Below, piece by piece: positions 16,024 through 22,017 of a stretch of 64,000 nt of DNA. How positions within the stretch are numbered: the stretch's first letter is position 1; each line of letters begins with the position of its first letter. The translations under genes and the position numbers were made by a program. The notes below the pieces were generated by a model. It had not been told where the DNA came from, searched no databases, and worked only from the letters and a program-made list of their open reading frames with translations. The stretch lies in contig CALVFO010000001.1 in assembly GCA_944326855.1 (NCBI GenBank), forward strand, positions 60,082-124,081, in the 5' to 3' direction. The stretch comes from an uncultured Alistipes sp. Its GTDB lineage: Bacteria; Bacteroidota; Bacteroidia; Bacteroidales; Rikenellaceae.

Positions 16024-17658
16024 TCATTCGCCGTTTGTGGCTTCGGGTCTCCGGCATCCCGATTTATCGATACAAAACACATGGTCGGCCTGCACCACCC
16101 GGGCCCGGCCGGCCCGAAAATTCCGAGCCGAATCATATACGGCCTCGATGACCAATACGCCCTGACGATTGATATAACCGTATTTTCCTCCGACCCTGAC
16201 CACCGAAAGACCTTCCCGGAAAGCCGTGGCAAACCCATAACGAACCGGTATCACTTCCCGACCCCGGGTATCGATGAACCCATAGCTTTCCCCGCGACGA
16301 ACCCGCGCCCGACCTTCCCGAAACGAATCGGCACTGTCATACCCTCCGGCATCGATCACACATCGTCCCGTCCGATCGACGTATTGACAACGGCCGCCCA
16401 GACGTACCGCCGCCAATCCTTCGCTGAAAGGAGAGGCCGCCTCGTACACCGGCTCGAACAACAGTCGTCCGCTGCTCAAATCGGCATATCCGTATAAGCC
16501 ATGCATCCGAATCACCGCACACGTTTCATCCTGCGGATCGATCACCTCATAATCCGCTCCGATCGGCGACACTTCAGGTCCGTACAAATCCGGCATCGGG
16601 CACGAACTCCCGGTAGCGGCAACCGGAACGGGCTCCCGATCCGGAGCCAACTCTTTCGGAGCTTGTTGATGACCGGCCGAAGGCTCTGCCAACATATCAC
16701 GATCCGGGGACGGAAGCGGTAAAGCCTCCGTTTTCCTGGCGGCAGTTCTTTGCTGCGTTCCGTCCTGCGCCAACAGAGCCAGCACCCGAGCCAATCCCTC
16801 CACCTCCGGAGTCTGGGTCCGCAACATCCGACACAAGGAGAGCAGGGTACCCGCACCTTGTGCGGTCCACTGTGCTTCGAGACGATTCAACAAGGCGGAA
16901 GAACCCATGGCGGTTTCTGCGGCATTCAAGATCAGATTTTCCTTGTCGTTATAGCGGGCAAACAGCGACGGATCTTCTTGCAGAGCGTGTAAGCTCAGCG
17001 CAATGACCGCCAGCGGATAATCGTCGATGTGTTTATTGAAAAAATATTCGTCCCGGGCCGGATGCTGATACGCCGGTGAACCGATCAGCGAGGTCCGCTT
17101 TCCGGCCAACGAAGGCAGGTACATGCCGTCGAAATCGATCAGGCACAACCGTCCGTCTTCCCGGACCAAAATATTATCGTGTTTGATATCGCCATGAGCA
17201 AAATCCTGATCCAGCAACCACAGGGCCATCCGATCGAAACGGGAAGCCAGATTGCCGAGTTCCTGCCGATCTTCCTGCTGAGCCAGACGGGCCACCCGAC
17301 GCCCGAGGGTTTCCCCTTCGACCCACTCCATCCACATCACCGGATAATAATGGCCCTGATCGTGCTCATCATAGACATAAATCTCTTCGGGCAACCAACG
17401 ACCCCCAACTACATAGTCGGAATCAGGCGATTCCAGAAAGCGGAATAAACGCGCATCGAAATTCGGTTCCCGGATATAGCATTTCAAGGCATAGGGTTTT
17501 CCTTGGAGACGTACCCGAAAAATCACGGAAAAATTACCGACCCAGAACAACGGTTCTCCGTACAGATCCCGATCGGGAACCATTCCCTCGAGCGTACGGA
17601 ACAAACCCTGAACATGATTCAGGGTTTCAAGGTATTGGGTAATGGTCGGACAACTCAT
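16024..17658 (-). CDS. Serine/threonine-like protein kinase with C-terminal WG repeats
   Basis: A 544-residue protein with an N-terminal kinase domain (about residues 20-290), a variable Pro/Ala/Glu-rich linker (about 305-360) and four or five WG repeats (about 370-535, units such as GYGFIDTRGREVIPVRY). The catalytic residues are present: Lys59 (YALKC), HGDIKHDN at 155-162 with Asp157, and DFDG with Asp175. The GSPAYQHPARDEYF segment near 193 resembles an activation-loop end. The fold looks like the atypical HGDIKxxN kinases that accompany TerY-type vWA proteins. First gene of a three-gene leftward unit (kinase, vWA, pseudokinase). The ATG at 17658 is only 13 bases after a terminator hairpin, and a promoter candidate lies just upstream of that hairpin. 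Substrate unknown. Confidence 0.78.
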   Translation of the reverse strand: MSCPTITQYLETLNHVQGLFRTLEGMVPDRDLYGEPLFWVGNFSVIFRVRLQGKPYALKCYIREPNFDARLFRFLESPDSDYVVGGRWLPEEIYVYDEHDQGHYYPVMWMEWVEGETLGRRVARLAQQEDRQELGNLASRFDRMALWLLDQDFAHGDIKHDNILVREDGRLCLIDFDGMYLPSLAGKRTSLIGSPAYQHPARDEYFFNKHIDDYPLAVIALSLHALQEDPSLFARYNDKENLILNAAETAMGSSALLNRLEAQWTAQGAGTLLSLCRMLRTQTPEVEGLARVLALLAQDGTQQRTAARKTEALPLPSPDRDMLAEPSAGHQQAPKELAPDREPVPVAATGSSCPMPDLYGPEVSPIGADYEVIDPQDETCAVIRMHGLYGYADLSSGRLLFEPVYEAASPFSEGLAAVRLGGRCQYVDRTGRCVIDAGGYDSADSFREGRARVRRGESYGFIDTRGREVIPVRYGFATAFREGLSVVRVGGKYGYINRQGVLVIEAVYDSARNFRAGRARVVQADHVFCIDKSGCRRPEATNGE

Positions 17659-20973: not shown

Positions 20974-21810
20974 TTAAGCGTGTTCATTCAATCCGCGCGG
21001 ATAGACCCCATACACATGCAGTTCCTGCGAGGCCTGCTCCATGAGATGTACTACCCGGGTATAATCCTCCAGCGTATCGAACTCCATATCGACGTGAAAC
21101 ATATAATGCCAGGGTTCGCTGGGAATGGGGAACGATTGCAGTTTGGTCATATTGATCGTACTGTCCTCCATTTCTCGCAGGACCTTCATCAACGAACCGT
21201 GTTTATGATCGGTTTTGAAATAGAGCGAAGCCTTGTTCGCCCCCTGAGGCATGGGATCGCCGGCCGGCCGCAAAATCAAAAACCGGGTATAATTATTCTT
21301 GATGGAATGAATGTCGGGGGCAATGATTTTCAAACCGAACAACTTGGCCGCCAGATCCCCGGCAATGGCTGCCGCATTGCGGATACCGCGTTCGGCGATG
21401 TGACGGGCACTGAGTGCCGTGTCCTCGGTTTCGATCAATTTCCAGTGATGAGCATCCAGAAAATCGACGCATTGCAACAAGGCCATGGGATGGGAATGCA
21501 CCTCTTCGATCTCTTCGAGACGCACATCGGGCAAGGCCATCAGATTCTGCCGAATCCGCAGGTAATATTCGCCCACCGCCTGCAAACCATCCTTTTGCAG
21601 GATACCCAGATTGGCCAAAATGCTCCCTGCAATGGAATTTTCCACGGCCATCACACCATAGTCGGCCTCTCCGCTTTCGACCTGACGGGCCACTTCACGG
21701 AAGGTGGCACATGGATGTATCTCGATATTCTCACCCAGGCACCGATGTGCTACAATCTGATGAAAACTGCCTTCATAGCCCTGAATGGCCACTTTTTTTC
21801 GCTCGTTCAT
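20974..21810 (-). CDS. pheA: Prephenate dehydratase
   Basis: A 278-residue monofunctional prephenate dehydratase, converting prephenate to phenylpyruvate. The catalytic domain runs from VAIQGYEGSFHQIVAHR to about residue 185. The conserved region YGVMAVENSIAGSILANL is at about residues 61-78, and TRFLILRP near 173. A C-terminal ACT domain (about 190-270) contains KASLYFKTDHKHGSLMKVL and should bind phenylalanine for feedback inhibition. The frame opens at 21831, but those codons fall on the attenuator hairpin, so the ATG at 21810 (MNERKKVAIQG) is preferred. First structural gene of the aromatic operon, with a Phe/Tyr-rich leader peptide encoded 89 bases upstream. Confidence 0.93.
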   Translation of the reverse strand: MNERKKVAIQGYEGSFHQIVAHRCLGENIEIHPCATFREVARQVESGEADYGVMAVENSIAGSILANLGILQKDGLQAVGEYYLRIRQNLMALPDVRLEEIEEVHSHPMALLQCVDFLDAHHWKLIETEDTALSARHIAERGIRNAAAIAGDLAAKLFGLKIIAPDIHSIKNNYTRFLILRPAGDPMPQGANKASLYFKTDHKHGSLMKVLREMEDSTINMTKLQSFPIPSEPWHYMFHVDMEFDTLEDYTRVVHLMEQASQELHVYGVYPRGLNEHA

Positions 21811-21830
21811 ACTCGCTCGCTCTTTAACCA

Positions 21831-21864
21831 AAGAATCCCGATCCTACCAAGGACCGGGATTCTT
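21831..21864 (-). terminator. Attenuator hairpin in the leader of the aromatic operon
   Basis: On the minus strand, AAGAATCCCGGTCC pairs over 14 bp (one G-U) with GGATCGGGATTCTT, loop TTGGTA, 20 bases before the pheA ATG. The tail after the stem is only modestly T-rich (TGGTT). The loop and left arm CCCGGTCCTTGG (complement of 21847-21858) can pair instead with CCAAAGCGGACGGGG (complement of 21912-21926) inside the leader peptide gene, a classical antiterminator arrangement. The same hairpin read on the plus strand has a better T tail, but no rightward gene ends here. Confidence 0.65.
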
Positions 21865-21898
21865 TTATTTGGATTTCCAAGTTATTTATTCGTCAAAT

Positions 21899-21979
21899 TC
21901 AGTCAAGCAACCCCCGTCCGCTTTGGTTTTCAAAGTAGAAATAAAAATAATAACCAAAAAAGGGCGAAAGTAAAGCCAT
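21899..21979 (-). CDS. Phe/Tyr-rich leader peptide of the aromatic operon
   Basis: A 26-codon reading frame, ATG at 21977-21979, TGA at 21899-21901, preceded by the ribosome-binding site GAGGAAG 2 bases before the ATG. It starts MALLSP and then has FFGYYFYFYF (residues 7-16), nine aromatic residues in ten, five Phe and four Tyr, using both TTT/TTC and TAT/TAC codons. It ends in ENQSGRGLLD. It lies 89 bases upstream of pheA. Ribosome stalling at these codons when charged tRNA-Phe or tRNA-Tyr is scarce would free the following segment (21912-21926) to pair with the left arm of the hairpin at 21831-21864 and let transcription continue. The codon run is seen directly; the mechanism is inference from classical attenuators. 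Confidence 0.78.
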   Translation of the reverse strand: MALLSPFFGYYFYFYFENQSGRGLLD

Positions 21980-22009
21980 TGCTTCCTCGTGTACTTTTAA
22001 TGAACGTTG

Positions 22010-22017
22010 CAAATGTA
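22010..22017 (-). promoter_or_regulatory. Promoter -7 element for the aromatic operon
   Basis: TACATTTG on the minus strand (complement of 22010-22017) fits TAnnTTTG. It would start transcription about 25 bases before the leader peptide ATG. There is no clear -33 TTTG, so the call is tentative. Confidence 0.42.

Follow-up and report, generated by a model that had tools for sequence, protein, structure and literature searches.

A mixed phenylalanine/tyrosine leader peptide and a probable attenuator before the pheA operon of Alistipes, with candidate counterparts across Bacteroidia

Upstream of pheA in the genome of an uncultured Alistipes sp. lies a short frame in which nine of ten consecutive codons specify Phe or Tyr. 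What does such a frame do before a gene of phenylalanine synthesis, and to which amino acids does it answer? Here we describe this locus within the window, by which we mean the whole stretch of 64,000 nucleotides that was analysed, and compare it with the corresponding loci of related bacteria. Judging by sequence comparison and folding models, the frame and the hairpin behind it quite probably form a ribosome-mediated transcription attenuator, which would sense charged tRNA-Phe and tRNA-Tyr before the operon; that they form an attenuator, of whatever specificity, is very likely indeed. The mechanism is an ordinary one; its mixed specificity is unusual, and it is widely distributed.

The operon lies on the minus strand, as do all elements of the leader described below. 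It begins with pheA (prephenate dehydratase, PF00800, 20974-21810) and continues with a class I/II aminotransferase (PF00155, 19778-20959), tyrA (prephenate dehydrogenase, PF02153 and PF20463, 18910-19767) and a DAHP synthase fused to chorismate mutase (DAHPS/chorismate mutase, PF00793 and PF01817, 17742-18803), all assigned by Pfam. Together these enzymes cover Phe, Tyr and the entry to the shared aromatic pathway. A first-pass annotation of this DNA rightly placed the leader ahead of pheA, but the ATG of the gene begins at 21810, and the boundary of 21811 given there misses it by one base. The operon is followed by a gene (16024-17658) for a kinase-like protein with WG repeats.

For comparison we used 52 pheA loci of relatives, and scanned the 46 that belong to Bacteroidota (L002-L048 without L034, whose contig starts within pheA and which was therefore excluded). 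The closest PheA relative, from a metagenome-assembled Alistipes (L037), has 94% identity, and most of the others are titled Alistipes, Tidjanibacter or Rikenellaceae. The order aminotransferase, tyrA, DAHPS/chorismate mutase after pheA is kept in 36 of the 46 Bacteroidota loci; L005, L010 and L020 are cut by contig ends. The gene scan of these 46 loci detected no tyrA in L013, L015 and L039 and no aminotransferase in L045, and the gene order after pheA differs in the three loci from Algoriphagus. In 12 of the 46, a WG-repeat kinase-like gene follows the operon in the same orientation.

The leader frame has 26 codons (MALLSPFFGYYFYFYFENQSGRGLLD, with 5 Phe and 4 Tyr) and occupies 21899-21979, from an ATG at 21979 to a stop codon ending at 21899; 169 bases separate its ATG from that of pheA. 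Codons 7-16 (21932-21961) form the regulatory run FFGYYFYFYF, and a Shine-Dalgarno-like GAGGAAG is found at 21982-21988. The frame, its GAGGAAG and its codon run are present in the sequence as first described, and the frame has equivalents in relatives. Further upstream, at 22010-22017 and 38 nt from the leader ATG, is the putative promoter element TACATTTG, which fits TAnnTTTG, a pattern that we take to be the Bacteroidota -7 promoter motif. Of 35 loci, 32, the window's included, have this motif in the 75 nt that precede the leader, where about one would be expected from a background rate of 0.028 per 75-nt stretch, and the transcript is therefore expected to include the leader and not to start downstream of 21899. 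A chance frame was considered and dropped: in a scan of all six frames the leader is the single place in the 64-kb window with at least 7 Phe/Tyr per 10 codons, and none of 40 order-1 Markov windows holds a stretch with at least 8 in 10. Frames of related kinds are rare elsewhere in the fetched loci, where the 450 bases upstream of other long frames hold a frame with at least 6 Phe/Tyr/Trp in 10 in 7 of 515 cases, and a Tyr-rich frame (3 in 7) in 6 of 515. The leader peptide of the window matches no family in NCBIfam.

Behind the leader, at 21830-21865, follows a hairpin of 16 bp with a 4-base loop and one G-U pair. It had been reported at first pass as a stem of 14 bp at 21831-21864; its presence behind the leader is borne out, and its size is not. 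The left arm (region 3, 21850-21865), which is also the partner of region 2 described below, is defined by folding, relatives' loci and pairing tests, and the right arm (region 4, 21830-21845), which is followed by a weak T tail, by folding, relatives' loci and covariation. The RNA from 22000 to 21820 folds better than 200 of 200 dinucleotide shuffles (z -3.4). In helix 3:4 on 29 loci, 88% of the cells are paired and 8 of the 12 pairs have changed on both sides, which 4 of 500 shuffles reach; the covariation score is reached by none of 500 shuffles, and the number of further pair types by 23 of 500.

The left terminator arm has an alternative partner in the last leader codons, which had been proposed to lie at 21912-21926 and is contained within the antiterminator arm that we define by shuffle and re-pairing tests and by folding (region 2, 21904-21928). 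In the window the 2:3 duplex reaches -22.4 kcal/mol, and none of 200 shuffles does as well. Across loci, regions 2 and 3 change together: the words that pair are GGACTGGG with CCCGGTCC in L002, GGTCGGG with CCCGACC in L018, GGTCAGG with CCTGACC in L022, GTGGGCGG with CCGCCCAC in L009, and GGGGAGCGG with CCGTTCCC in L036. At one fixed register of a MAFFT alignment, 2:3 is 63% paired, weakly above shuffles, and 73% paired when slid by one; this support is weak because the spacing is shifted by one base between clades. We therefore let a register-free re-pairing test carry the claim, asking whether region 2 of each locus pairs better with the region 3 of that locus than in 20,000 permutations of partners. 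The cognate duplex energies of the 35 near loci sum to -668, against a mean of -468 when re-paired, and those of 19 class-wide loci to -291 against -218, with 0 of 20,000 permutations as low in either set. The class-wide set consists of 22 loci, the window's own included, minus the near kin L067, L076 and L082. In the near locus L038 the left terminator arm (region 3) was set by hand, the automatic pick being a wrong hairpin. Taken locus by locus, no more than 10 of 200 region-2 shuffles pair as well in 27 of the 35 near loci; those that fail are L006, L007, L012, L014, L020, L039, L045 and L048, of which L039 has a region 2 cut off by the definition used, because its stop codon comes early. 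The same test is passed by 17 of the 22 class-wide loci, while in L060, L071, L074, L080 and L082 between 21 and 67 of 200 shuffles pair as well as region 2.

Region 1 (21948-21971) is assigned by folding as the partner of region 2 in the free leader (including UUUGGUU with AACCAAA); the pairing belongs to the best fold of the window leader and is also seen in several relatives. Compared with codon shuffles, the 1:2 fold of the window has a z of -1.6, short of the 2-sd level, and five of the 35 leaders (L008, L009, L010, L018 and L045) fall below z -2. The states of the leader were modelled for the window, with the ribosome assumed to cover 15 bases from the A-site codon. In the ribosome-free leader, pairs form between regions 1 and 2 and between regions 3 and 4; when the ribosome is stalled at any of the 7 run codons tested, 2:3 is the best fold before region 4 is made; and when it sits at the stop codon, the RNA folds into the terminator. 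The folding is consistent with each state that an attenuator would adopt.

The ribosome-stalling logic put forward at first pass is well supported by comparison, through the relatives' leaders and their co-changing arms, and would run as follows. Transcription would start about 25 bases before the leader. When Phe or Tyr is short, the ribosome would stall in FFGYYFYFYF and cover region 1, leaving region 2 free to pair with region 3 once this is made; the terminator would then be blocked, and pheA, the aminotransferase, tyrA and DAHPS/chorismate mutase would be transcribed. When Phe and Tyr are both plentiful, the ribosome would reach the stop codon and cover region 2, so that region 3 would pair with region 4 and transcription would end before pheA. 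Without translation, region 1 would pair with region 2 and the terminator would also form.

If this is how the operon is run, relatives should keep the parts, and the first-pass annotation had proposed a search for aromatic codon runs and covarying stems upstream of their pheA genes. An aromatic leader followed by a hairpin, with co-changing arms, is indeed found in 34 of the 46 Bacteroidota pheA loci and in 21 of 29 class-wide relatives. The other 12 of the 46 have no leader, three of these being from Algoriphagus, and there is none in L049-L053 (titled Bacillota, Oscillospiraceae, Lachnospiraceae, Clostridiales and Clostridia). Seven loci (L021, L023, L024, L025, L030, L033 and L041) are leaderless yet have aminotransferase, tyrA and DAHPS in order, and leaderless loci with the full gene order apparently represent losses or replaced control. 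A covariance model was built from 29 of the 35 loci (L035, L036, L038, L039, L040 and L045 were left out as divergent), and of 150 genomes of the family, 69 contain a match to it, always a single one. The best 30 of these 69 matches all lie upstream of pheA, and the leader frame is in place in 29 of the 30; at the exception, L108, the contig begins too near for the position filter. Many of the matched peptides are identical to those of the training loci, so this search shows specificity more than independent reach.

Beyond the family, PF00800 was found in 31 of 119 genomes of the class Bacteroidia, and a leader is present at 22 of the 30 class-wide pheA loci fetched, the window's own included. 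These 22 loci span 15 families, and what they have in common is the aromatic run, not the peptide sequence. No leader precedes pheA in L056, L057, L059, L063, L068, L077, L079 and L085; the genome of L059 has a leader before a DAHPS gene instead of pheA. Searched class-wide, the covariance model matches in 15 of the 119 genomes, 9 of them at pheA, finding 9 of the 22 class-wide pheA leaders and missing most. At the matches in G010 and G020 (L129 and L130) there is no aromatic leader, and G030 and G064 have 1 and 5 matches respectively. The match in G083 lies ahead of phenylalanine hydroxylase, and that in G095 (L122 / L179) ahead of a DAHP synthase/chorismate mutase gene; the G095 leader contains FTFFYFYF, and about 3.6 kb separate that gene from the pheA downstream of it.

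We infer that both amino acids count, and the reading that bears most directly on this point keeps the same attenuator and lets Phe alone matter, the Tyr codons being bystanders that keep the RNA U-rich and unstructured. Such an attenuator would suit the first gene, whose pathway makes Phe, and it has a precedent in C. glutamicum, where aroR, the leader of aroF, contains Phe-Tyr-Phe and responds under Phe limitation and not under Tyr limitation (Neshat 2014, as reported in the passage on aroR of the review PMC11802643). The gene content across the class also lends it something. Among 20 class-wide stretches examined, all leaders are mixed Phe/Tyr; tyrA was detected in 11 of them and not detected in 9, so the presence of Tyr codons is not simply tied to that of tyrA. 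Against it, each of the 35 leaders, window included, keeps at least 2 Tyr codons along with at least 2 Phe codons (164 Phe and 133 Tyr in total), and the window's operon holds tyrA as well as DAHP synthase/chorismate mutase, the latter feeding both products. DAHPS/chorismate mutase is present in 19 of the 20 class-wide stretches, the remaining one being short.

A further argument against Phe as the sole signal comes from phenylalanine hydroxylase (PF00351), which converts Phe to Tyr and was found in 55 of 198 class genomes. In 12 of the best 30 loci fetched, this gene is preceded by a Tyr-rich leader and a hairpin (L160, L145, L159, L142, L154, L158, L144, L133, L155, L143, L132 and L136), and no Phe-run frame was seen before it among the frames with four Phe/Tyr/Trp in 7 that were listable at the 30 loci. 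The 12 leaders together contain 7 Phe, 53 Tyr and 4 Trp codons; the Phe:Tyr ratio of 7:53, compared with 164:133 in the pheA leaders, gives a Fisher p of 2e-10, in a test that treats codons as independent even though the leaders share ancestry. Of the 12, 8 pass the single-locus pairing test (L145, L154, L155 and L159 do not), and in re-pairing on 11 loci (L136 dropped) 1 of 20,000 permutations is as low as observed. These leaders are the best evidence, as read from sequence, that Tyr codons may be chosen as sensors, and we consider it unlikely that Phe alone is sensed before pheA. The Tyr-rich leaders are themselves a possible tyrosine-specific attenuator; among the matches listed, the literature holds no tyrosine-specific ribosome-mediated attenuator, and the Tyr form, if true, would be one. 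One genome, G083, has a leader with YYYY before its phenylalanine hydroxylase gene (L125:1517-1573, the same place as L160), and its pheA has a Phe/Tyr leader of its own (L084).

Control by transcription termination, as preferred here, would have to be given up if the hairpin acted on pheA translation by sequestering the start site. The weak T tail pointed out at first pass is real: the longest T run after the window hairpin is 3, a consensus terminator scan called no terminator there, and the hairpin ends only 19 bases from the pheA ATG. The pheA start nevertheless lies outside the hairpin, and across loci anything between about 8 and 210 bases separates the hairpin from the pheA match, as would fit a terminator better than a hairpin that blocks the start site. 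The T tail is also stronger in most other loci, the longest run being 3 in the window, L037 and L035, 4 in L008, L009, L011 and L017, and five or more consecutive T at the hairpin end in 28 of the 34 relatives. On these distances and T tails we dropped translational sequestration, which we hold to be highly improbable. We give barely any weight to the reading in which the short frame encodes a small working peptide and the hairpin is the ordinary terminator of that small gene: the peptides of near relatives are alike, but the class shares the aromatic run and not the sequence, the stop codon is not fixed in position (L039), and joint changes preserve the pairing of the last codons with the terminator arm. 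A T-box riboswitch or other catalogued RNA was set aside, with no Rfam T-box match; nothing reached the Rfam gathering threshold in the window, in five other pheA loci or in the hisG locus of the same genome, and below threshold there were weak matches to non-leader families only.

The nearest textbook counterparts of the proposed attenuator are found in enterobacteria. The pheL-pheA and pheST leaders of E. coli are Phe runs. They are like the window leader in combining a leader of regulatory codons with attenuation before a Phe gene; the window leader differs in mixing Phe with Tyr and in having no Rfam leader match, and its operon goes further, covering Tyr synthesis and the entry to the shared pathway as well. 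The thr and ilv attenuators of enterobacteria show that one leader can sense more than one amino acid; they are alike in this respect and concern other amino acids and other genes. A 2010 study by Lopatovskaya (Mol Biol 44:128) may cover Bacteroidota. For E. coli pheL-pheA, the review section describes leader-peptide attenuation with pheA as the controlled gene (PMC11802643). In the same source, aroR of C. glutamicum resembles the window leader in having Phe and Tyr codons before a DAHP synthase operon; the account names Phe-Tyr-Phe, as against nine Phe/Tyr in the window leader, and the organism belongs to another phylum. Passages of PMC1262725 put Phe under attenuators and Tyr under T-boxes, and a 2010 survey, in the part cited here, names leader peptides from Proteobacteria and Actinobacteria only, before adding its own Firmicutes case (PMC2965389).

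Hints for the phylum itself come from Flavobacterium psychrophilum, for which strong signs of attenuation by leader peptides in front of amino acid operons were described, along with a structured 5' element upstream of pheA without Rfam hits (PMC9723704, sections on these elements). That element shares phylum and gene with the window leader, and the sections concerned neither report a peptide or a Phe/Tyr reading nor follow the element outside Flavobacteriaceae. For Bacteroides thetaiotaomicron, the section on 5' UTRs mentions short frames reminiscent of leader peptides (PMC7366714), and the corresponding passages of PMC4833913 and PMC8305728 add nothing on pheA. The literature searched holds general hints for the phylum, and we therefore claim novelty modestly. 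On balance, we favour the view that aromatic attenuators are widespread in Bacteroidia and that the run spells the product, with Phe and Tyr before pheA or DAHPS/chorismate mutase and Tyr before phenylalanine hydroxylase. This suggests that Bacteroidia, a large group in the human gut, commonly run their aromatic amino acid genes by a form of control that has been studied mainly in Proteobacteria. The mixed Phe/Tyr and the Tyr-rich runs would offer a natural set for asking how leaders combine two amino acid signals, and leaders with no match in Rfam or, for the window peptide, in NCBIfam would become annotatable.

Other biosynthetic genes of the window's genome were considered as well. Its hisG is preceded by a His-rich leader, MYRTINIHHVHHHPYLLG (L054:1330-1386), with a terminator-like hairpin and a T run behind it, judged by eye, so attenuation of this kind appears to serve more than one operon in this lineage. 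In the same genome there is no Ile/Val/Leu leader within 900 bases of ilvD, the three aspartate kinase genes that scored above the cut-off have no evident Thr/Ile leader ahead of them, and trpE was not found. A Trp codon lies in or beside the Phe/Tyr run in L003, L005, L061, L062, L065, L075 and L078, and may, as a suggestion only, make the shared pathway responsive to Phe, Tyr and Trp alike. In L080, two aromatic leader frames stand in tandem before one pheA.
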